Source of the DNA: Oscillatoria nigro-viridis PCC 7112
GTDB lineage: Bacteria; Cyanobacteriota; Cyanobacteriia; Cyanobacteriales; Microcoleaceae
Length of the DNA stretch: 64,000 nucleotides
Direction of reading: 5' to 3'
NCBI RefSeq assembly: GCF_000317475.1
Contig: NC_019729.1
Span: 882,501-946,500, forward strand
The position numbers were made by a program, and so were the translations under genes. The notes under the pieces are model-generated. The model saw only the letters and a program-made list of their open reading frames with translations. It had not been told where the DNA came from and made no database searches. Shown here piece by piece: positions 8,093-28,551 of this stretch. Every line of letters begins with the position of its first letter. Position 1 is the first letter of the stretch.

Positions 8093-9022
8093 ATGACAAA
8101 TCACATGAATAAAGCTAAATCTATCAAAATTGCGGTGGTGGGGGACGTTCACGATCTGTGGGAACCTGAAGACGGCGAGGCCCTGAAGCATCTGGGCGTT
8201 GATTTGGTGCTGTTTGTGGGGGATTTTGGCAATGAGTCGGTGGAGGTGGTGCGGGCGATCGCCCAATTGGACATTCCGAAAGCAGCGGTGTTTGGGAACC
8301 ACGACGCTTGGTACACGGCGACAGAGTGGGGCCGCAGTCAGTGCCCTTACGATCGCACTCAAGAAAATTGGGTGAAACAGCAGTTAGATTTAATGGGAGA
8401 AGCTCACGTCGGTTACGGGAAAAGGGATTTTCCAGAATTGGGCGTAACTGTGGTGGGCAGCCGCCCGTTTACTTGGGGGGGATCGGAGTGGAAGTACGGG
8501 GATTTTTACTCGGAGTGGTTTGGGGTAGAAAGTTTTGAGGAGTCGGCGCGGCGCATAGCAGGGGCAGCAGCGGATGCCGATTGCGAAAATGTGATTTTTT
8601 TGGGTCACACGGGCCCGACGGGGTTAGGAGAGGCTCCTGAAGACCCCTGCGGGCGAGATTGGAAGCCGTTGGGAGGGGATTGGGGCGACCCGGATTTTGC
8701 GGAGGCGATCGATCGAACTCGGAGTTCTGGAAAGCACATACCTCTGGTAACTTTTGGTCATATGCACCACAAACTGCGGCACAAAAAGCACGAGTTGCGG
8801 AAGTCGCTGGAGGTGAGTGCGGAGGGTACGGTGTATTTGAATGCGGCCAGCGTACCGCGAATTGCGAAGAGAGAGTGCTCGAAATTGCGGAATTTCTCGA
8901 TCGTCCTGCTGGAAAATGGAGCAGTCTCGGAAGTGTCTCTGGTATGGGTAGGCGAAGATTTCGCGGTAGAAAGGGAACAAATTCTTTATCGGCGCACTGA
9001 ATCTGCAGCTATTTGTAGTTAG
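8093..9022 (+). CDS. Metallophosphoesterase of the cyanobacterial TIGR04168 type
   Basis: 309 residues with the full calcineurin-like metal-binding set: GDVHD near residue 16, GDFGNE near 43, GNHDAW near 67, GHTGPTG near 171 and GHMHHK near 222. The spacing and the GDVHDLWEPED opening match the TIGR04168 family found in cyanobacteria and plants; the substrate of that family is not known to me. The ATG at 8105 (MNKAKSIKIAVVGD) is an equally good start because the metal motif begins soon after it. The gene stands alone between the pPIWI-RE cassette and tRNA-Ser and is presumably part of the core genome. Confidence 0.85.
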   Translation: MTNHMNKAKSIKIAVVGDVHDLWEPEDGEALKHLGVDLVLFVGDFGNESVEVVRAIAQLDIPKAAVFGNHDAWYTATEWGRSQCPYDRTQENWVKQQLDLMGEAHVGYGKRDFPELGVTVVGSRPFTWGGSEWKYGDFYSEWFGVESFEESARRIAGAAADADCENVIFLGHTGPTGLGEAPEDPCGRDWKPLGGDWGDPDFAEAIDRTRSSGKHIPLVTFGHMHHKLRHKKHELRKSLEVSAEGTVYLNAASVPRIAKRECSKLRNFSIVLLENGAVSEVSLVWVGEDFAVEREQILYRRTESAAICS

Positions 9023-9056
9023 AGACATTTGCTGGTATGATAAAATTTATGCACCT

Positions 9057-9141
9057 GGAGAGGTGGCAGAGTGGTCGAATGCGCCTGACTTGAAATCAGG
9101 TGAGCCGCAAGGTTCCGTGGGTTCAAATCCCACCCTCTCCG
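9057..9141 (+). tRNA. tRNA-Ser (anticodon TGA)
   Basis: The acceptor stem GGAGAGG (9057-9063) pairs with CCTCTCC (9134-9140), with G9141 as discriminator. The anticodon arm CCTGACTTGAAATCAGG presents TGA. A long variable arm (GAGCCGCAAGGTTCC) and the T arm GTGGGTTCAAATCCCAC complete a class II serine tRNA. CCA is not encoded. The last 20 bases belong to the 48-bp attachment repeat of the neighbouring integrated element. Confidence 0.96.
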
Positions 9142-9169
9142 TTTGACAATTTTCTTGCCTGTTAAGGGT
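9122..9169 (+). repeat. attL of the tRNA-Ser element
   Basis: Left copy of the 48-bp direct repeat; positions 9122-9141 are the 3' end of tRNA-Ser, the remaining 28 bp lie downstream of the tRNA. The base before the repeat differs from that before the right copy (G against A), and the base after also differs (T against A). Confidence 0.92.
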
Positions 9170-9207
9170 TTCAGGTTAATTGTATTACCGATAGTCCCAT
9201 TTTCCGC

Positions 9208-9492
9208 TCAAATTTCGCTCCCATCTGTTCCAAGTATCTCCAAGACCACCTCCATATCTGCCAAGTTTGCGCCGGACTTTTTGCGCCGCGCTTTCAACTG
9301 GTTGAGCAAGTCGGCTGGCTCTGGAAATTCTGCGACGGTCGGAGCCGATTTTTTATTTGCTTCCCGATCGCGCCGCGCTTCCTTGAGTTCTTGCTCCAGC
9401 ATCTGCACCTTCAGTCCCAAATCGCCGTTGCGCTCGTGCAACTGATTCAGTTCTGCATCCCACTCTGCAAGTTGCCTGTTGGCCGCTTTCAA
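9208..9492 (-). CDS. Coiled-coil protein of the integrated element
   Basis: 94 residues counted from a TTG at 9492; the frame is open further upstream into the end of the preceding gene, so the start is uncertain. Residues 1-48 are a charged heptad-rich coiled coil (AELNQLHERNGDL, MLEQELKEARRDREANKK). Residues 60-94 form a second short helical segment (DLLNQLKARRKK). It lies directly downstream of the ribbon-helix-helix-like gene and is the last gene before attL. I do not recognise the family; an oligomerising or partition-accessory role would be guesswork. Confidence 0.5.
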   Translation of the reverse strand: MKAANRQLAEWDAELNQLHERNGDLGLKVQMLEQELKEARRDREANKKSAPTVAEFPEPADLLNQLKARRKKSGANLADMEVVLEILGTDGSEI

Positions 9493-9524
9493 TTCCTGCC
9501 TGAGCGATTCATCGTTGCCGTCGC

Positions 9525-9857
9525 TCAGGCACTCAATTTTCCCAGCCGTTCCTCAATGGCGGCCATCCGTTCCATCACGGGGTCAAGGCTTAAACTTACA
9601 GCCTTGTCTACAATGTCTACAATATCTGTAGACGCGACGCTATCATTACTTCGTGTAGACAAATTTGTAGACAGCGTAGACAGCGCGTTAGTGTCACTTG
9701 GCGTAGACACTGTAGACAGCGTTGTAGACGCGCCTGAGACTTCCTTGAGAATGCGTTGTGCAGCTTGACTTACCGACTCACCCTCTAGCCTCTGAGCTTC
9801 TATCCAGTTCAGGAAATGACCGGAAGCCCTGAACGATACAACTTGACTCTGACTCAT
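9525..9857 (-). CDS. Ribbon-helix-helix-like DNA-binding protein with Ser/Thr-rich middle
   Basis: 110 residues from the ATG at 9857 (a GTG three codons earlier is possible). The first 40 residues (VVSFRASGHFLNWIEAQRLE, then SVSQAAQRILKEV) read like a beta-strand followed by two helices, as in CopG/Arc-type ribbon-helix-helix proteins. The middle is low in complexity, rich in ST, TLST and VDIVD because it is encoded over repeated GTAGAC/GTCTAC heptamers. The C-terminus (DPVMERMAAIEERLGKL) is helical. Further copies of the heptamer lie just upstream of the start. By analogy with CopG and ParD proteins it may bind these repeats and control itself and the downstream gene; that is inference. Confidence 0.55.
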   Translation of the reverse strand: MSQSQVVSFRASGHFLNWIEAQRLEGESVSQAAQRILKEVSGASTTLSTVSTPSDTNALSTLSTNLSTRSNDSVASTDIVDIVDKAVSLSLDPVMERMAAIEERLGKLSA

Positions 9858-9943
9858 TGTAGACACCTGTATACAGCATTTGTCTACAATAACTGATAGC
9901 TGTCTACACTGTCAACATATTGTAGACAAAATTTGTAGACACG
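9606..9943. repeat. Cluster of GTAGAC/GTCTAC heptamer repeats (left)
   Basis: About fourteen copies of GTAGAC or its complement occur in 338 bp, most extended to TGTAGACA. Nine lie inside the ribbon-helix-helix-like gene and five lie in or near its start and upstream region. Spacing is irregular (8 to 50 bp, with one larger gap of about 125 bp at 9729-9856). The pattern resembles iterons or an operator/centromere array. Confidence 0.85.
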
Positions 9944-9996
9944 AAAACCCCCCAATTAAGGGGGATGGGATTGAGCCGTCAGTTGTCAGGCAGTAG

Positions 9997-12795
9997 CTAA
10001 ATTCTTCCTTGGAGACGGATGAGTTCAGTAATTCGATCGCGAACGGCTTCCACTTCTCCTTCCAACCACTGAGCAATCGTAGCTATGTCGTATTTTTTGC
10101 CCGGTGCCTGCCAGCCAAACATTTGTGTTTGGAGAGTTTGTAGTTGTTCTGGGTAGTATTCGTGCCACCACACCAGTGCTATGTCTCGCATCGCCTGGGC
10201 ATCTTCGGGAGTAATTTTCCGAGTTAATAGCTGAGGTTGCGGTAGCAGTTCTGCTAACTTTCGCCGCTCGTCATCGGTAAGTTGAGAGAGTAAATTACAG
10301 ACTTGACTGAAAGGTGAGGAAACGTCGGTTCCATCGGTTCCACCGCTCTGTATAAGGGTTTGTGCGGTTCCATCGTTGGTTCCAATATTTTTTGGAACCG
10401 ATGATGGAACCGCTGTATCCCTTACTGCATCTGCTGGAACCGATGGAACCGATGCTTTTACAGTTTTTGGGCAACCTTGCACAAATCCAATTCCAAGCAA
10501 ATATCTTTGTCCTCTTCGCTCCATTTCATCGCGCTCAAGATATTTACACACTTGAAGCTTGGGAAAAATCTCGCTAAGCCTTGATGACAACTGGTTTATA
10601 GCTTTCACCGGAGCGTCATACTTATTGGAAAGTTCATTCCAAATCAGCTTCTCCTTGGTGCCGCTAGTCTCTCGCTCTAGAATCCCTGCATCCTCATACC
10701 AAGCTTGCAATTGCTCCCACAAATCTTTAACCCAGACACGACCGCCAGACTGAACCTCCAAACCAACCTCGCGGGCAAACTGCCACAAGTGCCGACTTCC
10801 CTCCTGAGCTTCCCGCATCGCCTCACGGGTTGCCTTGTAGTCAATCCCCTCTTTCAGTAGCAGTGGCAACCGCTCCAACATCTTGTTGAGCATCGCCGGT
10901 GCAATCCGCTCAAGGATAAAGTTCTCATCATCCTTGAAACGTGGGTCAGCTTCCAACTCACCCTGAGACGGGTCAGCGTTGTGCTTGTATGTTTTCTCAA
11001 AACTCAGGATGCTGTAGCGGTCATCAATGGCGGCCGTCCCTCCAGTGATAGAGGGGAGTTTGTTGCAGTTGGCGAGAAAGATGGCCGCAGGCTTGTACTC
11101 ATAACCATCCTTGCCCTTGCGTTCAATATCAATGATGTCGCCTGTGATTAACTGCTTAAGACTCTGGATTGTGTCTAAATCTATTTTTGGGGTATTCTCC
11201 GAAGCCCAGTTACAGATACTTCCTTCAATCCCTGCCAGAGAAAACTTGCGGCCATTGTCATAGGATTTGAAGTCTGACAGCGACTTCCCGGTCATCCCCC
11301 GCCCAAAGACAGCAGACAACACAGCCCGCAATGTATCTTTACCGTTAGACCCCTCGCCGTGGCACAGCAAACCTTTAACGCCCCGTCCCGTCAGCTTGGA
11401 GCGGACAAGCTTCAAATTCAACGCAGCAGCAGCAGTCCGCAAAAATACCTCACGCTGCGACGGCTCCAAGCATTCCAAAAGGCGATCGCAGTCTGTCGGG
11501 TCAATATCGGGGTCATACTTGCCGCCAACATAGGTGTAGACCTGGTTGGGGTCGTGAGGCATCAAGACATGAGAACCGTCACAATTAATCCGCAGGACAC
11601 CGTTAGAGCAATTCAACCCATCAGGATTAATGGTGTCCTGGTGTACGGCCTTTCCGTCCACCACCCAGTCGTAAACCTGGTTAATGCTGGCAGAGTTGGC
11701 GTATTTTTTGCGGTAGCCACCCCCTTTCACTTTCTCGGAGTAGTTGCTCAAGTAATCGCGGATGCGGCGTTTTTCCACAACCTCTGGACAAAGTTCATAA
11801 AAACTACCAGTGAACCGATAAAGTTGACGCCCAATAGATACCCAATGTCCATCGGAATAGAGAGCTTCCTCTGCCTTTAGAACAAAATTACTCTCTGCGA
11901 CTGGCGCTGTGTCTGGGATGTAGTCGCTCTCACTACTGTCATACTTCTGGCATACTACTTTTTCTCGCGTGCGCGGGTGAGGAGTTAAAGAAATATTAGG
12001 GTTGGAGGAGTTATTTTTGCGATCGCCTTTTTTGACCTGCTTCTCCCACTTGTCTAGAGTTAGCGCGCTCGCTACAGCCTCTTTGAAAGCGTCACCACCG
12101 TTAGCTTTGATGAAATCATCCATCCCCTTGAACTTGGTATCCCAAGTCGTGACGTATACCTCGCAGCCCTCCTGTTCCAGCAAGCAGCCAAACTTCAGAA
12201 TGGCTGCACGGCAAGATGGGTTGGCCGCATAGTCCGAGTCAAAGTCTATGTAGTGGATGGTGTCGGGCTGTGCCCACTGCTTCACGATGCGCGCTAGTTC
12301 CCCGTCCTTGCCCCAGTTCCACACGCCTGTTAGAGCAATGGTTGCAAGCTCAATACTCAACCCAGCCCCGGCTTTCTTTGTTCCCTCTGACCAGTGGCGG
12401 GGGATGGATTTGTCCGCGTGAACTTTTGCCCAATAATCTCTATCGGGCATGGCTAGGAAGATTGCGTCCGGTTCCATGCCGGTGCCTGTGAGGTATTTGC
12501 GTGGCTTGGAACCTTCTGGCTGATGGGGCTTGTCTGGCTTGCCTTGTCCGTACCAGTTGCTAGCCCGTTCGCCAGTTTTCCACTGGACACCTCGACACCA
12601 CCAGCCCCCCGTTTTAATGGGTTCTTTTGGACGGATGCGCTCGTTGAGTTCTTTGGCTGTTAGAGATTCGATATTGAGGGATGCGATCGCTTCTGATACC
12701 GCTGAACTCTCAACCCATTCAGTCAGGTGCTTCGGGATGAAAGGATTGAAATTTTGAAATGCAGAATTTGACCCAGTGGGATATGATGTGTTCAT
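9997..12795 (-). CDS. Plasmid/phage-type primase-helicase (DUF3854 + D5-like)
   Basis: 932 residues. The N-terminal third contains a TOPRIM-like DUF3854 region (SEGTKKAGAGLS near residue 135, then YIDFDSD near 185) expected to make primers. A D5 N-like region (about 310-450) precedes a superfamily 3 helicase with Walker A GEGSNGKDT near residue 478, followed by IFLANCNKLP near 570, as in P4 alpha-type proteins. The last 170 residues are less conserved. Such proteins replicate plasmids, phages and satellites, so the element probably replicates when excised. The start ATG at 12795 has no strong Shine-Dalgarno. A small palindrome (GCTCGCC GCCTG GGCGAGC, 12808-12826) lies just upstream. Confidence 0.85.
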   Translation of the reverse strand: MNTSYPTGSNSAFQNFNPFIPKHLTEWVESSAVSEAIASLNIESLTAKELNERIRPKEPIKTGGWWCRGVQWKTGERASNWYGQGKPDKPHQPEGSKPRKYLTGTGMEPDAIFLAMPDRDYWAKVHADKSIPRHWSEGTKKAGAGLSIELATIALTGVWNWGKDGELARIVKQWAQPDTIHYIDFDSDYAANPSCRAAILKFGCLLEQEGCEVYVTTWDTKFKGMDDFIKANGGDAFKEAVASALTLDKWEKQVKKGDRKNNSSNPNISLTPHPRTREKVVCQKYDSSESDYIPDTAPVAESNFVLKAEEALYSDGHWVSIGRQLYRFTGSFYELCPEVVEKRRIRDYLSNYSEKVKGGGYRKKYANSASINQVYDWVVDGKAVHQDTINPDGLNCSNGVLRINCDGSHVLMPHDPNQVYTYVGGKYDPDIDPTDCDRLLECLEPSQREVFLRTAAAALNLKLVRSKLTGRGVKGLLCHGEGSNGKDTLRAVLSAVFGRGMTGKSLSDFKSYDNGRKFSLAGIEGSICNWASENTPKIDLDTIQSLKQLITGDIIDIERKGKDGYEYKPAAIFLANCNKLPSITGGTAAIDDRYSILSFEKTYKHNADPSQGELEADPRFKDDENFILERIAPAMLNKMLERLPLLLKEGIDYKATREAMREAQEGSRHLWQFAREVGLEVQSGGRVWVKDLWEQLQAWYEDAGILERETSGTKEKLIWNELSNKYDAPVKAINQLSSRLSEIFPKLQVCKYLERDEMERRGQRYLLGIGFVQGCPKTVKASVPSVPADAVRDTAVPSSVPKNIGTNDGTAQTLIQSGGTDGTDVSSPFSQVCNLLSQLTDDERRKLAELLPQPQLLTRKITPEDAQAMRDIALVWWHEYYPEQLQTLQTQMFGWQAPGKKYDIATIAQWLEGEVEAVRDRITELIRLQGRI

Positions 12796-13422
12796 TATTG
12801 TTGCTCGCCGCCTGGGCGAGCGTGATTACCAAAGACCGCTGACATCAGGTTCCAATTGCTGGCAGCGGTTTTTTGGCGTTTACATTTTGAAAATTTAGAG
12901 CTAGACAGGTGGAACCGCTCCGCAAACTTTAGTAAGCGGACGCAGCCAGACTGTCGGTATGGCTGACACCTATCAAGCCATTGCAGAATTTAGGGATGAG
13001 AAGAAGATTTTTCAAGAGCTGGGCGAAAAGGTGGCAGATTGACAAGAGAGCCACAAACTTTACCCACGCCAACTCTTCCGACTCAATGTGCCCCTGCCTG
13101 AGAAACCGCCCGCCCCAAAAATGCGTTAAAAACCACCGCAACCATACCCGCCATTCTCGGCGGATTTGTGCTTTTTCTTTTGGTGTTAGCGGGGGGAGGA
13201 TGGGCATAGGGATATTCTACGTTGGGGACTCACTTCGTCCCAAGTGGCAATTTTTCGGCATAACACTTCTTAACTTTTTGGAAACCTATTAGGTTTCCGT
13301 GGAAATAACAGTAAACAACGCACCTAAATTAAGGCTTCTGAGCGATGAGCTTGCTCGGCTGATTGAATATTATCTCGCCCGACGGAAATTCGCTACAGAG
13401 GGGTAGCCACAAGAGCTACCGA
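12796..13422. other. Gap between primase gene and membrane operon
   Basis: 627 bp with one plausible - strand gene (12929-13207, listed separately). It also contains the palindrome 12808-12826 and a longer imperfect hairpin with arms near 12835 and 12868 (AGACCGCTG / CAGCGGT) that could end transcription. A 35-codon + strand frame at 13299-13406 is too short to judge. Confidence 0.5.
12929..13207 (-). CDS. Small basic protein with one hydrophobic helix
   Basis: 92 residues. The N-terminus is basic and helical (LTPKEKAQIRREWRVWLRW). A hydrophobic stretch around residues 50-70 (FVALLSICHLFAQLLKNLLL) may be a membrane segment. No clear Shine-Dalgarno precedes the ATG. It lies on the same strand as the rest of the element, between the membrane-protein cluster and the primase gene. 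I do not recognise a family, and the reading frame could be fortuitous. Confidence 0.35.
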   Translation of the reverse strand: MPILPPLTPKEKAQIRREWRVWLRWFLTHFWGGRFLRQGHIESEELAWVKFVALLSICHLFAQLLKNLLLIPKFCNGLIGVSHTDSLAASAY

Positions 13423-13968
13423 TTAGCCATCATCCCCCCCCTCGAACTGATTGAGTAAATCCTGCAATTTCGCCTTGCCTTCCGAGAATTTGCGTCCTCC
13501 CATTTTGAGGACATTCTCGACAATCCAAGTCACGGACTTACCCGCTTCCATTGACTTACAAACTTCCAAATATATAGGGTAATCGGGATGCTCGGAAGCG
13601 GAAGCGGTATCCTGTAAGTCGTTGCTGTATATAGCTTCCAGCGCTTGTCGGGAAGCCTCCACGTCAACGCCAGGGGAAGTCAGTATAAGCTCAGCTTCCT
13701 GCTGTCTTTGTTGCTGGGAAACGTAGGCTGATGTACTAATTTCATCAATTACATCAGCAGTAATGGCGCGAGTTTTGATTTCTTCAATTTCACTTTCTTC
13801 TGCCAATTTACGGGCAATATTCCCCGCAGTGATGGCACAGGCAACAGCGCCAAACAATGACAGCCCCTGCATAGATTTATGCCAGCCGATGCGCTTATCA
13901 AGTGCAGTCAGAGGGGCTAGCCACAAAGCTAATGCAGCCCCGCTCAATACCCACATCTTTAACTGCAT
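13423..13968 (-). CDS. Membrane-anchored protein, last gene of the coupled cluster
   Basis: 181 residues. Two hydrophobic stretches, at about 5-22 (WVLSGAALALWLAPL) and 33-48 (GLSLFGAVACAITAG), anchor the N-terminus. A charged helical region follows (60-110), then a compact C-terminal domain (about 125-175: YPIYLEVCKSMEAGKSVTW, VLKMGGRKFSEGKAKL) that looks like a small helical, possibly winged-helix, fold. The start overlaps the end of the upstream 87-residue gene by 10 bp, so translation is coupled. Family not recognised. A membrane-tethered DNA- or protein-binding factor is one reading of the layout. Confidence 0.65.
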   Translation of the reverse strand: MQLKMWVLSGAALALWLAPLTALDKRIGWHKSMQGLSLFGAVACAITAGNIARKLAEESEIEEIKTRAITADVIDEISTSAYVSQQQRQQEAELILTSPGVDVEASRQALEAIYSNDLQDTASASEHPDYPIYLEVCKSMEAGKSVTWIVENVLKMGGRKFSEGKAKLQDLLNQFEGGDDG

Positions 13969-14222
13969 AGGAATACCCCCGCGCCAATAACAGCCATTGC
14001 CAGCGCTGCCAGTAGTAAAGCCTGCAAGTCCGCCACGGAAATCTTGAGCCAGCCACTAACCGAAAAATCTAGGAGCCAACACAAACCCCATAAAATAAAT
14101 GCTGCTGCTGCCAAAAATGCGATCGCTCTTTGCGACATCGGATGCAACGACGCTATCCACCCCAAAAGAGAGGAAGCGGCGCACCCGGCAATGAAATAGT
14201 TTGCCAAGTTTGCCGCTCTCAT
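13959..14222 (-). CDS. Small three-helix membrane protein
   Basis: 87 residues with three hydrophobic helices: about 8-24 (YFIAGCAASSLLGWIA), 32-52 (AIAFLAAAAFILWGLCWLL) and 66-84 (ALLLAALAMAVIGAGVFL). Its ATG (14220-14222) shares one base with the TAA of the upstream gene, and its 3' end overlaps the next gene by 10 bp. It is in the middle of the coupled cluster. Size and topology recall small phage or plasmid membrane proteins (holin-like or mating-pair-like), but no motif supports a specific function. Confidence 0.65.
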   Translation of the reverse strand: MRAANLANYFIAGCAASSLLGWIASLHPMSQRAIAFLAAAAFILWGLCWLLDFSVSGWLKISVADLQALLLAALAMAVIGAGVFLCS

Positions 14223-14443
14223 TAGTGTTTACCTCCTAACACCGCATCCCACGGGCGAGGCTGGGGAGTAGCGACGGCGGGAGGGCGAAAATTCTCCAAG
14301 GTATAGGAGCATCGGTTGCGCCCAAAAGGGGAATTTGATATTTCCACAAAGTGGGCAAGGTCAAAGGTGAAACCGTTAGCTCGTAAAGCTTCTACTAATT
14401 TCTTCACTTCTTTTTTGTTGCCGGAAAGCCACATATATTCCAT
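14222..14443 (-). CDS. Small soluble protein of the coupled cluster
   Basis: 73 residues, starting MEYMWLSGNKKEVKKLVEAL. The N-terminal 50 residues look like a small alpha/beta fold; the C-terminus is proline-rich. The start codon overlaps the stop of the upstream gene as TAATG, and its own stop overlaps the next ATG the same way. The two TAATG junctions in a row are strong support that this short frame is a real gene. Function unknown. Confidence 0.6.
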   Translation of the reverse strand: MEYMWLSGNKKEVKKLVEALRANGFTFDLAHFVEISNSPFGRNRCSYTLENFRPPAVATPQPRPWDAVLGGKH

Positions 14444-14949
14444 TAGCTTGCGCCTCCCGTCAGTTTGGCTTTTATCGCATCAATCCGAGTGCGGGCATCG
14501 CTGTCAGCCTTGTCAATCCCTAAACCCAGTCGGGCATAACCGGGACGCAAACTGTGCAAGTGCTTAGCCAGTCGAGTGTCTGAGCGTTTTTTCCCCAGTT
14601 CGTTATCAGCGACAACTCCTTCATATTTGCGGTGATGGCGGTGAACTTTAGCATCGGCTTCTTCTACTTTTGCTAGCGCTTCATAGGCGCGTTTAGACTG
14701 TTTTGCGCCGTCTGTTTTCTCCTTTGCCAAGTCCTTCATTGCGTCTGCTTCTTCCTTGGTAAAGTAGCGCGGTGCTGGCACAACTGGAACACTGCGGATG
14801 CTGGAAAAATTACCGGGATTTAACGGTGTAATAACACTTGCGTCAGTGCTTGCCAAAACTTTTGATTTGTCGATCGCGTGTCCGCCGTCATTGCTGGCAA
14901 TTTTTCCAGCATCAGAATTTCCGCCGAATAGGCGTAGTTGTAAGCTCAT
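14443..14949 (-). CDS. Charged helical protein of the coupled cluster
   Basis: 168 residues from the ATG at 14949, which overlaps the upstream stop as ATGA; a longer frame to 15021 would overlap the upstream gene by 76 bp and is less likely. The N-terminus reads MSLQLRLFGG. The centre (about 75-130: FTKEEADAMKDLAKEKTDG, SKRAYEALAKVEEADAKVH) is a long charged helix, and the end (LGLGIDKADSDARTRIDAI) is another helix. Family not recognised. Coupling to neighbours on both sides shows it belongs to the same unit. Confidence 0.65.
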   Translation of the reverse strand: MSLQLRLFGGNSDAGKIASNDGGHAIDKSKVLASTDASVITPLNPGNFSSIRSVPVVPAPRYFTKEEADAMKDLAKEKTDGAKQSKRAYEALAKVEEADAKVHRHHRKYEGVVADNELGKKRSDTRLAKHLHSLRPGYARLGLGIDKADSDARTRIDAIKAKLTGGAS

Positions 14950-15443
14950 AATTTTGTCCCGATTTGAATGTTGATGCGAACTGGGGAGGGAAATAAATTC
15001 AAGGGATTGATTTGTCGCCACATAGACATTGCCAGCACAAATACTCCCGCCGATGCGAGTACGAGTGCGATGAGTTGAGAGAAGTCAACCCAGTCTAAAA
15101 ATGTGGAATTCTGGTGGGTGAAACCGCACACAGGGAACGAACCGTCGTTAGTCCAATCAAGGGTGTCTACAGTGTCTACACATTGTGTGTCAAGCGGTTC
15201 AAATGTCGCGTCTACATTGTTTGCATTTAAACTGTCTACACTGTCTAGTAATGTGTCTACAGTGTCTACATTCACTGTGTCAAGCGATTCACCGTCAACG
15301 AGGTACAGTTCTAGCAGCGCTTCCCACGTAGCAGTTTTGCTAAGCTTCCCGAACTGCTTGGCGTCTTCATTGGTGAAGCCACGGTCATAGGCGATCACCT
15401 TAAGTTGGTCAATGCGACGGTAGCTGACGGTGGGTTTAGTCAT
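14946..15443 (-). CDS. Protein with conserved N-terminal domain, VDTVD-repeat linker and membrane helix
   Basis: 165 residues. Residues 1-50 form a small domain (YRRIDQLKVIAYDRGFTNED, FGKLSKTATWEALLELY) that is repeated almost unchanged in the remnant at 17305-17451, so it is under selection. Residues 52-95 are a low-complexity linker of VDTVD, DSVDSL units encoded over GTCTAC heptamers. A hydrophobic helix near 122-143 (LIALVLASAGVFVLAMSMW) lies before a short tail. It heads the coupled cluster. It may be a membrane-anchored DNA-binding or sensing protein; the family is unknown to me. Confidence 0.65.
   Translation of the reverse strand: MTKPTVSYRRIDQLKVIAYDRGFTNEDAKQFGKLSKTATWEALLELYLVDGESLDTVNVDTVDTLLDSVDSLNANNVDATFEPLDTQCVDTVDTLDWTNDGSFPVCGFTHQNSTFLDWVDFSQLIALVLASAGVFVLAMSMWRQINPLNLFPSPVRINIQIGTKL
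15165..15269. repeat. Cluster of GTCTAC heptamer repeats (right)
   Basis: Six exact GTCTAC copies plus one near-copy (GTCTAG) within 105 bp, all in the same orientation, inside the linker region of the 165-residue gene. Same motif as the cluster at 9606-9943. Confidence 0.8.
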
Positions 15444-15674
15444 GGCAAAACCCCGTCAACTCAATCATTAAGAGTTGCGATCGTCCGTTGGGACAATCGG
15501 CTGAAAGTGGCATAATTTATAGGCTCCAAACGTACTAACTCTACGGTTTGGGGAAGTCGTGGTTTGGCTAGCATTGCAAGTGCTTGTCAACCGCGCATCA
15601 ATCTTCCTTAGTTACTCACGATTGCAGACTTACACTTCCTTGTCAACACAGGGACTGTAAAGTTTTGTTTCAAA
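15444..15674. promoter_or_regulatory. Probable promoter region of the element's coupled operon
   Basis: 231 bp between the integrase stop and the first gene of the coupled cluster. Read on the - strand it holds TTGACA-like hexamers near 15590 and 15648 and an AT-rich TATAAATTATG near 15515. The spacing does not give a clean sigma70 pair, so the promoter is inferred from position only. No coding frame is evident. Confidence 0.3.
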
Positions 15675-17108
15675 TTATTCGGCTAGCAACTCCATCACTT
15701 CATCGGAGGTAATGCCGTAAATGGCGGCTAGCAATTTGATACTTTTCCCGTCACTTCCCAACTGTTTAAGCACCCCGATCGCACTACCCAATGGAACGGC
15801 TTCTGTTATGGAATGAGTTAGTAAATCAATTGTTGTCTGAGTATTGGCTCGTTTCTTATAAATGCCTTCATTCATCTGTGTTGAATGTCCTAAACTCTTA
15901 GCTCTTGTTTCTTGAGACATCCCCGCCATTTGACCGTTGAGGTTAGCTAGGTGACGTAAGGCGTGAGATTGAGTAAAACCCTTATTCCATCTTTTTAAAG
16001 TAGCCCACGCACGGTCATTATATGCCCCAGAAATTGTTTTTGGATTACTCGATGTCAGCCTAACTTCAGGCAATTGCCCTGATTTGATTCCCAATCGTTC
16101 GATTAAATCCGAGTGAGTAGGAGGAAGCATTGGTACACACAATCGATACCCCGTCTTAGTCGTGGTTTCTAACTTTGTCTTTTCCCCTACTACCGCAATC
16201 ATTTTTGTGTTAGTCGGTTCACTTAATGCCGGGATAGTAATGCCATCCTTTGTCTTAAACGGTTCATTTACGTTCTGAATCGCAAACACTTCATGCACTC
16301 GAAAACCATACACCACCTGCATCGAGAAGACCCACAGCCATCGTTTGCGTGACTCTAAGTTGTATCGCTTATCATCGGAGACAGCCAAAACATCTTCGTG
16401 AAATTTCAAAAATTCATCCACTGATATAGACTGAAGGTCTTCTCTGAACTGTGTCTGCGTGCCGTTAATTTCTTTAAGGCGAATAAGCAGGTCAGTGTTG
16501 CCAACAGTCTCAGCAAGCTTACGCATAGCGCACAAGCAGTTTTTGAAACATTTAGTTCCTACTTGCTTGCTGTGAACTACCAACAGAATATCTGCCATGT
16601 TCAGGACTATGTTTTGTGGCAATAGCTTGAAATAGTGTCCGTAAACACATCGCCAACTATATTGGTGGCTAGCATTGTTCTTGTCGCGAGGTTGACGACG
16701 CTTTGTGTGTCCGTCCCAATATTCTTTCTCTACTTTTGCTATCGCCTCACCAAACGTCATCAAATCATTTTTGATAACGTTCTTTTCTAGAATCACATCA
16801 TCATACCAAGCCCAGAACTGAGACTCAGTTTTTAGTGATTCTAGAGCGCTAGCGACTAGGTGAGCCCGTCTCAAAGCATCGGTAATCCCTTGCATCGTCA
16901 GGTAACACCCACAGGTTTTATTAACTCGCTTGATACCTAACTTGAATTGAAGTGTTATGTAGCCACCGCTAGCTTTGCTGTCTCTTTTTAGACCTACCCC
17001 TTTGGGGCATTCTTTTTGGGCTTGTTTAAAGTAGTCGAGAATCCGCTCGTAGCCAATCAGGTAGTCAGCAGTGGTACTTGCTGTGACTGGATAAGACTTT
17101 TCGCTCAT
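15675..17108 (-). CDS. Tyrosine integrase of the tRNA-Ser element
   Basis: 477 residues from the ATG at 17108, chosen because AAGGAGCG lies just upstream; the longer frame from 17165 lacks such a site. The catalytic set of tyrosine recombinases is visible in the C-terminal half: arginine in YGFRVHEVF near residue 269, HALRHL near 379, LGHS near 407 and the nucleophilic tyrosine in NEGIYKK near 415. The N-terminal 250 residues would bind arm and core sites. The gene is within 160 bp of attR, the usual place for an integrase. It should catalyse integration into tRNA-Ser and, with a directionality factor that I could not identify, excision. Confidence 0.92.
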   Translation of the reverse strand: MSEKSYPVTASTTADYLIGYERILDYFKQAQKECPKGVGLKRDSKASGGYITLQFKLGIKRVNKTCGCYLTMQGITDALRRAHLVASALESLKTESQFWAWYDDVILEKNVIKNDLMTFGEAIAKVEKEYWDGHTKRRQPRDKNNASHQYSWRCVYGHYFKLLPQNIVLNMADILLVVHSKQVGTKCFKNCLCAMRKLAETVGNTDLLIRLKEINGTQTQFREDLQSISVDEFLKFHEDVLAVSDDKRYNLESRKRWLWVFSMQVVYGFRVHEVFAIQNVNEPFKTKDGITIPALSEPTNTKMIAVVGEKTKLETTTKTGYRLCVPMLPPTHSDLIERLGIKSGQLPEVRLTSSNPKTISGAYNDRAWATLKRWNKGFTQSHALRHLANLNGQMAGMSQETRAKSLGHSTQMNEGIYKKRANTQTTIDLLTHSITEAVPLGSAIGVLKQLGSDGKSIKLLAAIYGITSDEVMELLAE

Positions 17109-17264
17109 CTTTCGCTCCTTACTGTAAGAATGCCGAGTTTGCTTGCTGTAGACAGCGTACAGCAAGTCGCTCGGTATTCGCTCAAATCCAAAACAGGACT
17201 TTCAGAGTGGGTGCAAAAAATGGCTAGAACGACGCAAAATCGTCCATTGAGAACTTAGCGCTAA

Positions 17265-17312
17265 TTCAAATCCCACCCTCTCCGTTTGACAATTTTCTTG
17301 CCTGTTAAGGGT
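17265..17312 (+). repeat. attR of the tRNA-Ser element
   Basis: Right copy of the 48-bp direct repeat, identical to 9122-9169. Its first 20 bp are the 3' end of tRNA-Ser, but no tRNA precedes it. Confidence 0.92.
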
Positions 17313-17451
17313 ACAGTTCTAGCAGTGCTTCCCATGTCGCAGTTTTAGACAGCTTCCCGAAGTGTCTGGCGTCTTCATTGCTCAAGCCGCGGTCAAAGGC
17401 GATCGCTTTTAATTGGTCAATGCGACGGTAGCTGACGATGGGTTTAGCCAT
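17305..17451 (-). pseudogene. Truncated copy of the element's 165-residue gene
   Basis: From ATG at 17451 the frame encodes 48 residues closely matching the first 48 of the gene at 14946-15443: both contain VSYRRIDQLK and FGKLSKTATWEALLELY. It stops at a TAA formed inside the attR repeat, so the linker and membrane helix are missing. It lies outside the element, just past attR, and shows that a second related element once sat here in tandem. Confidence 0.85.
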
Positions 17452-17688
17452 GACTGACAAGCCTCAAGCTGTCGGCCGTAGTCGGTTCTCCCTCGAAACA
17501 GGGATAACAAAAATTGTCCGAGCTATTATTGTGCGTCCAGTTGATGTAATACACCCAGCCATCCTCCGGGCGATGAGAGATACCCACATATCTTTCAAAC
17601 GGTTATCCGTTTTATAAACAGCGGAAGTCAATTTTCCCATACACCAATGCAGCGCACCTTTTTGAATGATCGCTCCCGAATTGTTCAA
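17444..17688 (-). pseudogene. Frameshifted remnant gene upstream of the truncated copy
   Basis: Two overlapping - strand frames join into one sensible protein if a single base is restored near 17600: NNSGAIIQKGALHWCMGKL leads into ERYVGISHRPEDGWVYYINW and ends LRLVSHG. Its stop overlaps the ATG of the truncated neighbour, as in the coupled genes of the intact element. It has no counterpart in that element. Function unknown. The stretch from 17689 to 17997 shows nothing I can name. Confidence 0.5.
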
Positions 17689-17997
17689 GTTAATTTCTAC
17701 TTGCTGAACGAGGGGAATGTTCTTAGTGGGATGGTAAAATTTATGGGTTTCTGGATTGATGTTATTTTGGATCTACCACAAATCTGTTGCTTCCAAAACC
17801 TTGATTTCGTATTTCATAATATACCTCGCGTATTTACTTGAAATGCGTTAAACCTTTGACCCGTGATTTGGGGATTCCGCGCTCGCGGACTTATCTTGTG
17901 AAATTTATCTTTTGCAGACATCCTCTGCTACTGTTAAAGTATCTAGCTATATTAGCAATAGCAGACAGCGCCCCTCCACAATTGTTGAGAAAAACTT

Positions 17998-19494
17998 ATG
18001 CCTGCGATCGCACAATCTCCCAATTTACCCATTTTACAAGAAATCAACTCAGGATTGCCCAATATTTGCGGCTCCGAAGCAGAAATCAGTGCCGCAGCCA
18101 ATAGCAACGAACCTGTCTTTCTACCTACCACAAATCTGCGCCTCGAAAATATTCAAGCCGGATTCGCCTGCGCCCTCCACATGCACCAACCGACAATTCC
18201 TGCAGGTGCAAACGGCGAACTAATCGGCAATCTCCAGCATATGTTTGAACATCCCGATCGAGGAGATAACCACAATGCCGGAGTGTTTGCTTGGTGCTAT
18301 TCCCGCATGGGAGAATTTATCCCACAACTGATTGCCGAAGGCTGCAACCCGCGAATTATGCTCGACTATTCGGGCAATTTATTGTGGGGATTGCGCCAAA
18401 TGGGGCGCGACGATATCTTCAACAATCTCAAGCGGATTACCTGCGAACCTCAATATCAAACTCACGTAGAATGGCTGGGGACAATGTGGAGTCACGCCGT
18501 CATTCCCTCAACTCCAATTCCCGACATCAAACTCCAAATTCAAGCATGGCAACATCATTTTGCAGCTATTTTTGGCTTGGATGCCCTGAAGCGCGTCAAA
18601 GGTTTTTCACCGCCAGAAATGCACTTTCCCAATCACCCAGATACACTTTACGAATACATCAAAGCTTTGAAAGAATGCGGCTACCGCTGGCTGATGGTGC
18701 AGGAACATTCTGTAGAAAATCCCGACGGTTCGGGATTGTCGCAAGACCAAAAATATATTCCCAACCGTTTGGTTGCCCGCAATTCTCACGGCGAAACAAT
18801 CAGTATTACTGCTTTGATTAAAACCCAAGGTTCGGATACGAAATTGGTCGGTCAAATGCAGCCGTATTACGAAGCGAAAGGACGCAACAAACAGCAAATT
18901 GGCAGTGTCACAGTTCCTTCTTTAGTTACTCAGATTGCCGACGGGGAAAATGGCGGCGTGATGATGAATGAATTTCCCAGCGCCTTTTTCAAAGCTTGGC
19001 ACGAAAACCGCGAACAAGGCGGCGGAAAATCCGGTGTTGTCGGTTTAAACGGCACTGAATATTTGGAGATAATTGAGGCGGCGGGGGTTAATCCTGAAGA
19101 TTATCCGATTTGTCAGGGGATTAACCAGCACAAAATCTGGCAGCTAGTCGATCCTGATAGTGCAACGCCGGAAAAAGTCGAAAGTGCGATCGACCAACTC
19201 AAGCAAACCGACCATAATTTTCACATGGATGGTGCTTCTTGGACTAACGATTTGAGTTGGGTGAAAGGCTACGAAAACGTGTTAGAACCGATGAATCAAC
19301 TCAGCGCTGCATTTCACAAAAAATACGACCCGCTGTTGCAGCAAGATGCGGCAGTTACGAAGCAGTTTGAATACCAGCAAGCTTTGCTTTACAACTTGTT
19401 GCTGCAAACAAGCTGTTTTCGCTATTGGGGACAAGGAACTTGGACTGATTACGCGCGCGAAATTTACAACCGCGGCGCTGCTTTAATGAAGTAG
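17998..19494 (+). CDS. Glycoside hydrolase family 57 protein
   Basis: 498 residues. The GH57 signature HMHQP is near residue 60, at the start of the predicted (beta/alpha)7 barrel. GFSPPEMHFPNH near 201 corresponds to the family region that carries a catalytic or substrate-contacting acidic residue. WTNDLSWVKGYEN near 420 lies in the later conserved region. GH57 enzymes act on alpha-glucans (amylase, branching or 4-alpha-glucanotransferase activity); which activity applies cannot be read from sequence alone. The start ATG is preceded by GAGAAAAA. The first 50 residues are variable and could be shortened. The gene stands alone. Confidence 0.82.
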   Translation: MPAIAQSPNLPILQEINSGLPNICGSEAEISAAANSNEPVFLPTTNLRLENIQAGFACALHMHQPTIPAGANGELIGNLQHMFEHPDRGDNHNAGVFAWCYSRMGEFIPQLIAEGCNPRIMLDYSGNLLWGLRQMGRDDIFNNLKRITCEPQYQTHVEWLGTMWSHAVIPSTPIPDIKLQIQAWQHHFAAIFGLDALKRVKGFSPPEMHFPNHPDTLYEYIKALKECGYRWLMVQEHSVENPDGSGLSQDQKYIPNRLVARNSHGETISITALIKTQGSDTKLVGQMQPYYEAKGRNKQQIGSVTVPSLVTQIADGENGGVMMNEFPSAFFKAWHENREQGGGKSGVVGLNGTEYLEIIEAAGVNPEDYPICQGINQHKIWQLVDPDSATPEKVESAIDQLKQTDHNFHMDGASWTNDLSWVKGYENVLEPMNQLSAAFHKKYDPLLQQDAAVTKQFEYQQALLYNLLLQTSCFRYWGQGTWTDYAREIYNRGAALMK

Positions 19495-19594
19495 GAAAAG
19501 TTTGCAGTTGCGGTGTGGCAAAAAAAACGCAACTGCGAACTTTAACAAGTTTTACAAACAAATAATTTCAGTGCACCCGGATTTGATATCAACA

Positions 19595-19686
19595 GTCATG
19601 GACGCATGGGGGCTCAGAAACCGGGTTTTTTTACGGAAATCTTTGATTGTAACCCGCAGATTCGGTAAAAAACCCGGTTTCTTTAG
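19595..19686 (-). repeat. Dispersed AGAAACCGGGTTT hairpin element, copy 1
   Basis: An inverted repeat with arms AGAAACCGGGTTTTTT and AAAAAACCCGGTTTCTT about 45 bp apart, next to GACGCATGGGGG. Two further copies (47980-48069 and 59543-59629) have the same arms and the same TGCGTC tail in the opposite orientation. Confidence 0.75.
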
Positions 19687-19740
19687 TCTGTGTGCGATAC
19701 GTAAGTCTTGTTACATAAGTGTTAAATTGACACAACTTCT

Positions 19741-20973
19741 GGCTCTCCTGAACTTTTGGTTATAATTTTATCTAATCAGAAAAGCAAGCTAATACACGAT
19801 TTCTGAAATTATTAAAATTAGAAAAGCCATATCCTTGCCGCATTATCAACTTAATTCGATTGTTGATTCCTTCCATCACTCCACTTGTTGTGCGATTAAG
19901 AAAGTAGTTGCAAATACCCTCAAAATGGTTTTCAATTGTTGATGCAGATTCTCTAAAAAATACTTGTGCATGATTTAGCCATTCTTTAATTTTTATCTGC
20001 CCTTCTTTGACGGTCAAATTAGTCTCATATATTTCTCTAAATTTTTCTTTCATCTCATAAGCAATTCTCAAGCATTCTGATTTATCTAGTATCAATTCTA
20101 ATTTATCAATCTGAAGAAGATTCAAATTTACTCGATTACTTAACAATAAATATTTACTTTGCCTGTCTGTTACTCCGGCGGCTCTACGTAATTTATTCAA
20201 GTCTTTATTAACTACTTTCATTACATGAAAACGATCGATAATAATTTGGGCATTTGGAAATACTTTTTTGATAACTTTAGGAAATCCTCCCCACATATCA
20301 ACACTCACTTCTTCAACTTGTTCTCGAACCTCAATTGCTTGCTGCATAAGAACTTCAATGATTTCTTCAGAGCGATGAGAATCAATCATTTCAATTAAAT
20401 TACCTTCGCCCATGTCACTGACAACAGTCACAAAATTTCCTTGACTTTTCCGCATACTTATCTCATCCAGACAAATTCGTTTAACTTCCAATTTGTTTTT
20501 TTTTGATTTTTGTTTACCTGGTCAAATATTCCTTTTATTTCGTGATAACTCAGTCCTTCTTCTCGCCCAATTTGCTCCATGCTCGATTGTTTGACGCGCT
20601 CATAAATATTTTGTTCGTATCGTTGAGTATGCCGTCTTTTTATGTCCAAAAAATCTATTTTTTCTGTGGGATATCGTTGGCAATTAGGACAGTAGAACTG
20701 CCGTCGCGGGACTTTTAAATACACAGGACGACCAAACACTGGCAAATCTCTTACTAAGATTGGTCTATTCTGATGCAACTGTTCGGTATAATTTTGGCAG
20801 TGATGACAAACCATACCTTCTTCTACAATTCCCAGTCCTAATATAATTTTTCCATCAATTTGAGTACAACTTTCAACCTTCACTCTAGGCAAGTCTAATA
20901 TGTAGTCTAAATAAAAATTCATGATAATTAATGTATTGTTTGTTACATTATACACCATAAAGTCAGGAGAGCC
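19741..20973 (-). mobile_element. ISL3-family insertion sequence
   Basis: 1233 bp. The ends are inverted repeats beginning GGCTCTCCTGA (19741 onward; complement ending at 20973). Flanking them is a perfect 8-bp target duplication CAACTTCT (19733-19740 and 20974-20981), the duplication length typical of ISL3. The perfect duplication and ends indicate a fairly recent insertion into non-coding DNA. Confidence 0.92.
19772..20922 (-). pseudogene. ISL3 transposase, reading frame split at an A9 run
   Basis: The first frame (ATG 20922) gives MNFYLDYILDLPRVKVESC, a zinc-binding N-terminus (CHHC ... CPNCQ) and a helix-turn-helix region. At 20496-20504 nine consecutive A (on the coding strand) occur; a -1 shift there joins QKKNK to LEVKRICLDEIS, entering the DDE transposase domain (SVDMWGGFPKVIKKVFPN, DRFHVMKVVN, GVMEGINNRIKLIMRQGYGF). 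Together they make a normal-length ISL3 transposase of about 383 residues. It is either an indel in the run, making the copy inactive, or slippage producing full-length enzyme. Confidence 0.8.
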
Positions 20974-21405
20974 CAACTTCTCTCTTTTGTGAAGATTTTG
21001 TAAAGTTAGCTTGTGTGCCAGAGTGCCAATTTCAGTTCCAGCAGTCCTCTTGACGCTTTTGACAACAACCGATCCGAAACGCCGCAACTCGGAAATTTAT
21101 CTTTTTTATAAAGATTGTGTAAAGTTAACTTCTTTTTAACAAAAAAATCTCTAGTTGAGCCTAAGTTTCGGATACAAGGTGAATTCCCAAAACTTCCGTA
21201 TAAACCCTGTATCCTAATCCAAAGAGTCATGCTAATTTTAGTAAATCAGTTCAAGTCTTAGCTATCAATTCATTAATCAGGGTAATCGAATGAATAGTTA
21301 TAAACTTCTCGGAAAAACACCGCAGCGGAAAGCATTCCTGGGACAAATCTCACTCTCTTCAACTAAAAAAGCTCGCACGTAACGAGTTTTAGATCGATTG
21401 CCATC
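20974..21405. other. Region between the ISL3 and ISKra4 insertions
   Basis: Apart from the 5' part of the decayed zinc-ribbon gene (from about 21300) and the two 8-bp target duplications, nothing coding is convincing. Two similar AT-rich stretches (GAAGATTTTGTAAAGTTAG near 20991 and AAAGATTGTGTAAAGTTAAC near 21110) repeat about 120 bp apart. Confidence 0.4.
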
Positions 21406-22585
21406 GGGTGCATCTCACTTTTGCGAATGTGTCAAAAAAGAGTTAAAATGAAAAAGCTAGTAAAATCGTCAAATAAAGATGAGGTAAATAAAATGACACC
21501 CTCAGACCAACAACAACTAAAAGCCCACTTAAAAGCGGTAGCAAAAATTCTTTACAGAAATACAGAGCCAACTGAGTTAAAAACTTTTGAAAGTATAGAA
21601 AAAGCAGTCCGTCAGAAAATGTTATCAGAGGTTGGTCCAGAAATAGGTAGCTTTTTTTTTCAGCAGTATCAGGAATTCAAACAGGAAAACCCCGAAAAAT
21701 AAAATCAATAATCGGATCGCTCGACATTACAGATAATCAGGCAAAATATTTTGGCTTAAAAGCTTACAGTCAATTTAGTCCCCTGATGGAAAATTGCTGT
21801 CTTTTAATCAGTGCTAACGAATCTTATCAAATGGCAGAAAAAGATTTGGAAAAATTTACTGGGATCAAAATTTCTCACAGTACATTACAAAGATTAGTCA
21901 AAAGACAAGAATTGGAATTGCCTACATCTCAACAAGGAGTCAAAGAAATTACATTGGATGGCGGTAAAGTCAGACTACGCAACGCAACCAAGGGCGAGAG
22001 CTGTTACTGGAAAGACTATAAAGCCGTGTGTTTAGATAATATTTATGCGGGAGCGTTTTTTCAAAATAATCAAGATTTAATTGATTGGACTAATAGCCAA
22101 AAATTACTACATCCTATGTATTGCCTCGGAGATGGCCATGCCGGAATTTGGAACATATTTAAAGAAATTGGAGACAATGAACAAAGACAAGAAATCTTAG
22201 ATTGGTATCATCTGAAAGAAAATCTCTACAAGGTAGGGGGTTCAATAAAACGATTGAAATTAGCCGAAAATATGTTATGGCAAGGCAAAGTTGATGAAGT
22301 TATAAATTTATTTAAAGACTTTAAAGGTCAAGCATTTAAAACGTTTTGCAATTATTTAGATACCCATCGCTGCCGAATAGTAAATTACCAATACTACAAA
22401 GAAGAATCCATAAGTTCGATTGGTTCTGGAACAGTGGAATCAACAATAAAACGCATTGGATTAAGGGTAAAAATATCGGGAGCGCAATGGAATATTGAGA
22501 ACGTTTCCTCTATGCTTGCTCTTCGCTGTGCTTATCTCAACGGTCAACTTTCAATTTGATGTATGTGCCAAAGTGAGATGCACCC
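21406..22585 (+). mobile_element. ISKra4-family insertion sequence, copy 1
   Basis: 1180 bp with inverted ends GGGTGCATCTCACTTT and a perfect 8-bp target duplication TTGCCATC (21398-21405 and 22586-22593). The right part is identical in protein sequence to the element at 63381-64000. It has inserted into a zinc-ribbon gene that was probably already decaying. Confidence 0.9.
21493..22559 (+). CDS. ISKra4-family transposase with a -1 frame change
   Basis: The ATG at 21493 follows GAGGTAAATAAA. Frame one (MTPSDQQQLK ... FKQENPEK) ends at 21702. The second frame, in -1 phase, reads TGKPRKIKSIIGSLDITDNQ just before that stop and continues through ITLDGGKVRLRNATKGESCY, CLGDGHAGIWNIF, DWYHLKENLYKVGGSIKRL and SIGSGTVESTIKRIG to 22559. 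These are the DDE-type motifs of ISKra4 transposases. Nine T followed by C (21652-21660) lies about 40 bp before the first stop and is a possible slippage site. A fusion of about 355 residues is expected. The second copy at the window end encodes the same C-terminal protein. Confidence 0.8.
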
Positions 22586-22868
22586 TTGCCATCAAACAAT
22601 AGAAGCCTTTCCAACCTTTGAGTTGAAGTATGGGTTTTGTGCAGGTGACGCAGAAAGAACTTGCTCTTCAAGAACGCTTTCCGCCTCGTTCAAAGCTGAA
22701 TTTAACTTACGGTTATCTGCCCAGTAGACGGCAGAGTATGCCAGACAATTATTTGTCAAAATCTTCCTATTCTTGGCAGAGCTCTGCACCGGAAAAGAAT
22801 GATTGTCAGCGTGTATTGGGACATTATATCATGTCCGGTTGGTTAGTGATGATTAATTTCTCCTAGCC

Positions 22869-22912
22869 GTATTGCCTGTAATTAAAAGACTCAAAAACCG
22901 GAAAAACCAAGA
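22869..22912 (+). repeat. 44-bp copy of the 3' end of the PEP-CTERM gene
   Basis: Identical over 44 bp to 26028-26071, the codons for the last residues of the PEP-CTERM protein. Here it directly follows the stop of the decayed zinc-ribbon gene, 3159 bp upstream of the source. Confidence 0.9.
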
Positions 22913-22982
22913 ATAGTCAACTCAGGGTTTAGGTGGTTGTGTGTCTGTTAACTCATTAATCAGGGAAATCAAAGGCATCGTT

Positions 22983-23432
22983 ATGAACTACGGCGAAAAA
23001 CATTACTGCAACAATCTTCATTGCAGTCAACCCAAAAATCTGCATTGCAATCAGTTTTGTATTACTTGTTCGAGAACCATTGGCCCGCATCCAATTTTGG
23101 ATATAAGATGGGAGTTTGTGGCGGCGACGAAGAAGGAAATTGCTTCTCAATCAAGTTTACCAGAGCGTGGGCGATCGCAATTATGCTACGGCTATCTACC
23201 CGGTAGACTGCGAGATACGCCGGAAAATTATCGAGATCCTTCCTTGCCTTCTTATCAGACTAATTCGGATTATTGGTCGAATTCTCCAGCGCTTCAGAAC
23301 GAATACAGGCAAGTCTTGGGATATTACACGTATGTTTTAGTCAAGCAGCCTGGAGATTCGAGTGTCCGTTGGGGGAAGTTATTTTGGCCGATCATAATTG
23401 GTGCGGCGGTATGGTTCTGGTTTTTCCGCTGA
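22983..23432 (+). CDS. Zinc-ribbon protein with C-terminal membrane helix
   Basis: 149 residues from the ATG at 22983; a GTG 42 bp upstream is possible, but similarity to the decayed paralogue begins near this ATG. A zinc ribbon occupies residues 8-34 (C-x4-C in CNNLHC, C-x2-C in FCITC), like the N-terminal cysteine motif of many cyanobacterial signalling proteins. The middle (YGYLPGRLRDTPENY) is polar and unstructured in appearance. A hydrophobic helix (LFWPIIIGAAVWFWFFR) ends the protein, so it is tail-anchored. No enzyme domain. Function unknown. Confidence 0.7.
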   Translation: MNYGEKHYCNNLHCSQPKNLHCNQFCITCSRTIGPHPILDIRWEFVAATKKEIASQSSLPERGRSQLCYGYLPGRLRDTPENYRDPSLPSYQTNSDYWSNSPALQNEYRQVLGYYTYVLVKQPGDSSVRWGKLFWPIIIGAAVWFWFFR

Positions 23433-23501
23433 TTGTTCGGTAATCCAGAGGGCTAGATAAGGGTATCAGTTTTGAAAGCGTGGTTCCGCAAGGTAAATAT
23501 T

Positions 23502-24677: not shown

Positions 24678-24770
24678 CTTTGACTCAAAGTTGAATCAAA
24701 ATTGTTATCTAGTTTAAATGCAAAATTTTTACTCTCAATCGAGAACTTAATGCACAAAGGAGCGATCGAA

Positions 24771-27403: not shown

Positions 27404-27424
27404 CAATTACCCATTCCCAAAATC

Positions 27425-27724: not shown

Positions 27725-27773
27725 AATTTCACTAAGATAAGCGACAAAATTTACACTGATACCTTTGACATTA

Positions 27774-28385: not shown

Positions 28386-28405
28386 TCAACCACAGCAGGT
28401 AAATT

Positions 28406-28528: not shown

Positions 28529-28551
28529 TTTTAGGCGATTGTTAGTTGCTT

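Follow-up and report, generated by a model that had tools for sequence, protein, structure and literature searches.

A candidate integrative plasmid at tRNA-Ser(UGA) of Oscillatoria nigro-viridis PCC 7112, with a putative iteron origin inside its rep gene and a predicted -1 frameshift signal

Cyanobacteria hold several plasmids side by side, and the mutual avoidance of related plasmids is little understood. Tycheposons are small replicative elements with a tyrosine recombinase that reside in cyanobacterial tRNA genes. In geminiviruses, the iterons and the iteron-related domain of Rep combine a fixed arrangement of sites with a variable core word and a matching variable segment of Rep. An 8.1-kb element that invites comparison with these systems was identified in Oscillatoria nigro-viridis PCC 7112, in a stretch of 64,000 nucleotides (contig NC_019729.1, positions 882,501 to 946,500; hereafter the window). 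The element lies at a tRNA-Ser(UGA) gene and contains an integrase gene (int), a primase-helicase gene (rep), a gene for a small putative DNA-binding protein (g2), a downstream reading frame (g1) and a membrane operon that begins with o165 (Table 1). It is likened to tycheposons as these are generally described. A fixed arrangement, a variable word and a matching Rep segment are its points of likeness to the geminivirus scheme, which differs in belonging to a virus, in its HUH-type Rep and in sites that lie outside the rep coding region.

As a whole, the element is likely to be an integrative plasmid with a gene-embedded origin and a -1 frameshifted DNA-binding-like protein. Its integration and its kinship to plasmids are well supported. 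A broader proposal, that plasmids and integrative plasmids of cyanobacteria carry in rep a self-keyed origin cassette whose exchange gives a new, orthogonal replicon in a single step and lets many relatives coexist in one cell, together with a DNA-binding protein under -1 frameshifting, is favoured by a small degree. If it is true, the proximity of reader and DNA word, both contained in some 230 bp of a single gene, would account for the coexistence of related plasmids, the cassette could yield orthogonal replicons for laboratory cyanobacteria, and the frameshift signal would bring a conserved case of recoding into plasmid biology.

Passages of PMC5703833 describe RepA_N plasmids of the pSK41 type, whose rep gene itself contains the Rep boxes and whose origin DNA codes for a linker. 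The repeat array of the present element, a putative set of Rep sites, is likewise located inside rep, in linker codons. In contrast to the RepA_N plasmids, Rep is here an unrelated protein (DUF3854 + DUF5906) without a RepA_N domain among Pfam matches at E<=1, eight sites form a symmetric direct/inverted array where those passages give four boxes, and the word differs between close relatives together with a covarying segment. CyRepA1 and CyRepA2 plasmids encode Reps with DUF3854 at the N-terminus and a DEXDc helicase domain, according to sections of PMC10079941. The DUF3854 N-terminus is common to these proteins and the element's Rep, but the latter carries DUF5906 and falls outside NCBIfam CyRepA1 (no such model at E<=1), and the term iteron is absent from the main text of the two CyRep papers searched. 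No paper was found that describes the element, its iteron arrays or its frameshift by title or abstract.

The rep gene of the window contains GGTTCCA or its complement ten times. Eight of these sites, four in each orientation, fall within 124 bp, in codons of a linker, as a symmetric array with spacings of 9, 30, 12, 15, 12, 30 and 9. Identical spacings are found in the related loci L010 and L115, in which the words are GGAGCCA and GTTGGCA, respectively; L219 (GAGTTAC) shows them with one changed and L011 with two extra sites. Arrangements differ in the other reps, many of which contain the 9 and 30 bp steps. In near relatives, the DNA between the words stays similar and the word is replaced at all sites together. 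The best word count was greater than the maximum of 60 synonymous-codon shuffles in 23/23 Microcoleaceae open reading frames (ORFs), a result that measures strength and not frequency because all of the ORFs were picked after the word cluster had been seen (22 reps by homology, the L257 ORF by its cluster). Broken or cut reps (L107, L117, L133 and L136) and more distant or DUF3854-only matches (e.g., L226-L243) were omitted from this test. Ten named plasmids of other cyanobacteria were picked by Rep homology alone, and eight of them nominally beat their shuffles; one of the eight, L265, is ambiguous and has a self-overlapping word, and L260 and L262 do not beat the shuffles. The word count was not above shuffles in five integrase genes used as controls, and none of ten other window ORFs of at least 450 amino acids (aa) reaches the count of rep.

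These repeats might instead be protein-level repeats of a flexible, low-complexity linker and not DNA sites, which is highly improbable. Rep linkers do resemble disordered repeats (VPSVPS, GTDGTD), but the array repeats one DNA word in both orientations and so encodes different peptides to the left and right, the word counts exceed those of synonymous shuffles, and the geometry of the array is kept while the linker peptides change.

The array is better read as a self-keyed origin cassette, in which the origin would consist of the eight 7-bp iterons. A segment directly before it (LQVCKYL...GIGF) shows the same similarity as its flank in four pairs of reps with the same word (mean difference -0.1 points) and 36 points less similar than the flank in 87 pairs with different words (permutation p 5e-5). 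We infer that this segment of 25 residues reads the iteron word; its predicted secondary structure could, at low confidence, be that of a winged helix. The excised circle would replicate itself, with Rep (a primase-like DUF3854 domain and a P4/D5-type helicase) binding the origin within its own gene. Reader and sites would travel as one cassette, and each element may thereby keep a private origin code that allows its relatives to coexist.

A second conserved feature was identified at the junction of g2 and g1. The 3' end of g2 reads CTG GGA AAA TTG AGT GCC TGA, in which a -1 slip on G_GGA_AAA would lead reading into g1, and an 11-bp stem begins 5 nt downstream. The heptamer and an open -1 frame are present in 12/12 junctions aligned by g1 homology. 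A pattern containing the heptamer, with one mismatch allowed, gave 25 matches in 16 of 61 genomes and none in the reversed control. The exceptions among these matches are L189, with the heptamer GGGAAAG, and L213, with a stop in the -1 frame; the stem is shorter or damaged in L189, L192 and L209. The junction has a fold z of -3.64. Over 22 distinct rows 92.6% of the stem cells pair, a proportion that falls to 31-37% when the partner is slid by 1-3 columns. The stem covariation score was 0.169 vs 0.073 (0/500 shuffles), and one column pair among those that the pattern did not constrain covaries as C-G (10), U-A (7), A-U (3) and G-U (1). In L009, a free relative, and in L132, a similar g2-g1 architecture occurs in a single frame with another N-terminal domain, and across 70 aa g1 shares 47% identity with the C-terminal end of the protein that L009 encodes as one ORF.

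The junction could also be a translational-coupling signal or a DNA palindrome, with g1 made as a separate protein from a TTG start. A TTG codon is present at 9492 in the window and DNA palindromes likewise covary, but this alternative is rather unlikely in view of the g2-frame heptamer and open -1 frame in every aligned junction, with one stop (L213) in the wider set, and of the single-frame architecture of L009 and L132. Conservation argues instead that g2 and g1 are joined by a -1 frameshift signal, by which the small DNA-binding-like protein would be made in a short and a long form. The g2 product is putatively ribbon-helix-helix-like, as judged by eye and without Pfam support. Heptamer, spacer and stem resemble the -1 frameshifting of the dnaX and phage G-GT type. 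The present case differs from that type in that a plasmid DNA-binding-like protein is joined to a coiled-coil domain and in that the main heptamer is G_GGA_AAA.

A second word, TGTAGACA (complement TGTCTACA), is concentrated in the same element, with 16 sites in 9001-17500 and one in the rest of the window. Of the 16, g2 contains six and o165 five; four more are located upstream of g2, and one lies at the start of the integrase gene. The sites of g2 and o165 fall in the linkers of their products. Word counts beat 500/500 synonymous shuffles in 9/9 g2 copies and 8/10 o165 copies; the weaker o165 copies are L115 (10/500) and L137 (1/500). The coordinates used for the L137 copy gave internal stops, and a single internal stop is present in the L010 copy. 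Other repeated words occupy the corresponding stretches of Crinalium plasmids. This conservation suggests that the g2 protein, in its short or long form, may bind the TGTAGACA sites of its promoter and coding sequence as well as those of o165, with which the membrane operon begins. The iteron array, the frameshift signal and this word go beyond the first-pass annotation of the DNA.

Several observations weigh against the proposal as a whole. The covariation of segment and word was tested with just four same-word pairs, grouped by the author. Tandem duplicates aside, no word is common to two reps within one genome, as judged by eye; this pattern fits compatibility, but the pairs are too few to test it. 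Two of the five stem measures fail against shuffles, namely pairs changed at both positions (174/500) and additional pair types (303/500), and most of the stem covariation is carried by one pair. The heptamer named as highly shift-prone in Escherichia coli, in the part of PMC5009743 that treats it, is G_GGA_AAG, and the main heptamer here ends in A. No excised circle was seen, overlapping ends being found in 0/6 contigs tested (L009 plus five integrase-bearing ones). The structure models are poor: the helicase and following domain of Rep has a mean predicted local distance difference test (pLDDT) score of 41, and o168, mostly one long helix, has a mean of 66, both too poor for a fold search.

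The DUF3854/D5 primase-helicase reported by the first-pass annotation is the 932-aa rep product, which matches DUF3854 (8.5e-23) and DUF5906 (1.4e-13). Rep relatives occur in 146 plasmid records, and named cyanobacterial plasmids reach 43% identity (E 4e-126). The annotation had offered two readings, a plasmid-like integrative element and a helper-dependent satellite. The former is sustained by sister and tandem copies and by the presence of Rep relatives and the membrane operon on plasmids. A phage satellite would be a small element that carries a P4/D5-like primase, sits integrated at a tRNA gene and relies on a helper phage for excision and packaging. The helicase part of Rep does match a PHROGs DNA primase (7.2e-29), satellite-phage primases of Streptococcus (about 24% identity) and the solved DNA primase 7ola (E 1.1e-9), which we take to be a satellite protein. 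However, phage primases are about 24-25% identical to Rep among the matches listed (10 of 290), and Rep is much closer to plasmid Reps. No relatives of int or o168 were found in IMG/VR by pattern scan and tblastn, and none of int in 50,697 phage records. None of the element's ORFs matched a packaging or capsid family at a convincing E-value, and the membrane operon is found beside rep genes on circular plasmids. A satellite was judged very unlikely, given the lack of int and o168 relatives in IMG/VR and of int relatives in the phage records, and a Rep far nearer to plasmid Reps. The absence of structural phage and conjugation genes noted earlier also held, since the other ORFs gave no convincing match to such families (weak PHROG matches only, E 0.013 to 0.37). 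The small ORFs gave nothing near the Pfam cut-off, and no anti-phage defence family (PADLOC) was found at E<=0.01 among ten ORFs.

Integration of the element as a plasmid-like circle is supported by its repeats, by empty sites and by sister and tandem copies; the integrase would insert the circle at the T-arm end of tRNA-Ser and restore the tRNA. The perfect 48-bp direct repeats overlap the tRNA 3' end exactly as first annotated. The empty tRNA-Ser site expected in related genomes was found clean in 7/29 genomes of the genus, with closely similar chromosomal sequence directly after the tRNA (L080-L083, L087, L089 and L091, in genomes G013, G027, G023, G025, G003, G005 and G026, respectively), but only 23 bp of the repeat (TTCAAATCCCACCCTCTCCGTTT) occur at these seven sites. 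The other 25 bp look element-derived. A 143-bp fragment adjoining the right repeat is 86% identical to the start of o165. Because of this remnant and the 23 shared bp, the right repeat is probably part of an older copy once integrated here. Some other genomes of the genus show short stretches resembling element scars at the tRNA-Ser site (e.g., L077, L079 and L085). Window positions 17578-30999 are inverted relative to the chromosomes of G027 and G028, with one end of the inversion adjoining the element; the right flank is thus not the ancestral neighbour of the element.

Two sister copies are present on the same chromosome, one at tRNA-Val(GAC) with 21-bp repeats and one at tRNA-Gly(TCC) with 66-bp repeats and without int. 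In the same genome, g1 fragments adjoin tRNA-Leu(TAA), tRNA-Thr(GGT) and tRNA-Ser(CGA) (L012, L013 and L014) and are probably footprints of lost elements. The same gene order is found in copies at tRNA-Ser(TGA), Val(GAC), Lys(CTT), Arg(CCG) and Arg(TCT). For copies L116, L112 and L120, no direct repeat that includes the tRNA 3' end was found. Microcoleus vaginatus HSN003 (G028) contains the same element at the same tRNA site with rep interrupted by an insertion; this insertion (L107 3265-7300) carries an ORF of 447 aa. Tandem pairs were identified in G010, with att cores 9055 bp apart, and in G016, where three copies of a 49-bp repeat are spaced 7112 bp apart; neither of the G016 tandem copies yielded an integrase.

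The membrane-protein operon, whose combination with such a gene set was unfamiliar to the first annotator, is real and widespread: o168 matches 45/388 genomes of the order and, of 1070 candidates, 999 are related to it at E<=0.001 (120 listed). Contig C4 of the same genome (7645 bp), presumably a circular plasmid, carries homologues of o165, o168, o87 and o181 beside a different Rep (DUF3987), and no integrase match was found on it. Crinalium epipsammum PCC 9333 has six plasmids with the same operon, which on circular plasmids adjoins the rep genes. The operon is an unexplained but common plasmid module. Speculatively, it might anchor the element at the membrane and thereby serve its segregation, although this is less likely than not. 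The six Crinalium plasmids are typed as mobilizable and the operon encodes membrane segments (by eye), as might be expected of an integrative mobilisable element moved in trans by conjugative plasmids from an unrecognised origin of transfer. This alternative is doubtful, as no relaxase or coupling-protein family was found among the ten ORFs scanned, nor among four ORFs scanned of L009. Behind the conserved membrane part of o181, the C-terminal part is of at least three interchangeable types (L009, L010, L110, L115 and others).

The coordinates of the features are given in Table 1.

Table 1. Features of the element and its integration site (window positions)
Feature	Positions	Strand	Description
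tRNA-Ser(UGA)	9056..9142	+	Integration site, anticodon TGA (ARAGORN)
attL	9122..9169	.	Left copy of the 48-bp repeat: 21 bp of tRNA 3' end + 27 bp
g1	9208..9492	-	Coiled-coil/C-terminal domain, read as putative -1 frame extension of g2
Stem-loop	9497..9531	-	Part of predicted frameshift signal, 11-bp stem
g2	9525..9866	-	Small putative DNA-binding protein with TGTAGACA/TGTCTACA sites in its codons
Slippery heptamer	9537..9543	-	G_GGA_AAA, g2 frame
Putative operator	9881..9941	.	Four TGTAGACA/TGTCTACA sites upstream of g2
rep	9997..12795	-	DUF3854 + DUF5906 primase-helicase, putative replication initiator, 932 aa
Iteron array	10327..10450	-	GGTTCCA four times per orientation within rep, putative origin
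Covarying segment	10483..10557	-	25 aa of Rep covarying with the iteron word, putative recognition segment
o92	12929..13207	-	Small ORF, 80% identical in the G028 copy
o181	13423..13968	-	N-terminal membrane segments (by eye), interchangeable C-terminal part
o87	13959..14222	-	Small membrane protein (hydrophobic by eye)
o73	14222..14443	-	Small ORF, not found in every copy
o168	14443..14949	-	Conserved membrane-operon gene, predicted helical (low confidence)
o165	14946..15443	-	N-terminal domain conserved; linker coded by TGTAGACA sites; a single hydrophobic segment (by eye)
int	15675..17108	-	Tyrosine-recombinase-type integrase, 477 aa
attR	17265..17312	.	Right copy of the 48-bp repeat
Remnant	17310..17452	-	Start of o165 from an older copy, same site

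The integrase placed by the first-pass annotation at one edge is the ORF at the right edge, in which R270, K318, H382, R385, H408 and Y417, which we take to be the tyrosine-recombinase catalytic residues, are kept and are invariant across 25 aligned rows. It gave no match to Pfam or NCBIfam at E<=1, and its profile gave none to solved structures at E<=0.01. Its sole PHROG match is a family of unknown function (E 0.066), and many of its relatives bear PF27132 as a precomputed label. Integrase matches are present in 23/61 genomes of the family, and more distant integrases are found at Met, Lys, Arg and Pro tRNA genes. On a tree of 31 rows, built by a quick method and with some long branches, the seven tRNA types require at least eight changes (17 rows with an assigned tRNA, where the Arg(CCG) label of L116 is by adjacency, no repeat being found there, and L171 and L173 are assigned to Lys by a tRNA copy at each side). 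A 6.8-Mb single-contig genome of another genus (G038) contains 26 integrase-family matches. At tRNA-Val(GAC) in L123 (8258-10470), a 2.2-kb stretch between 35-bp repeats contains little beyond an integrase.

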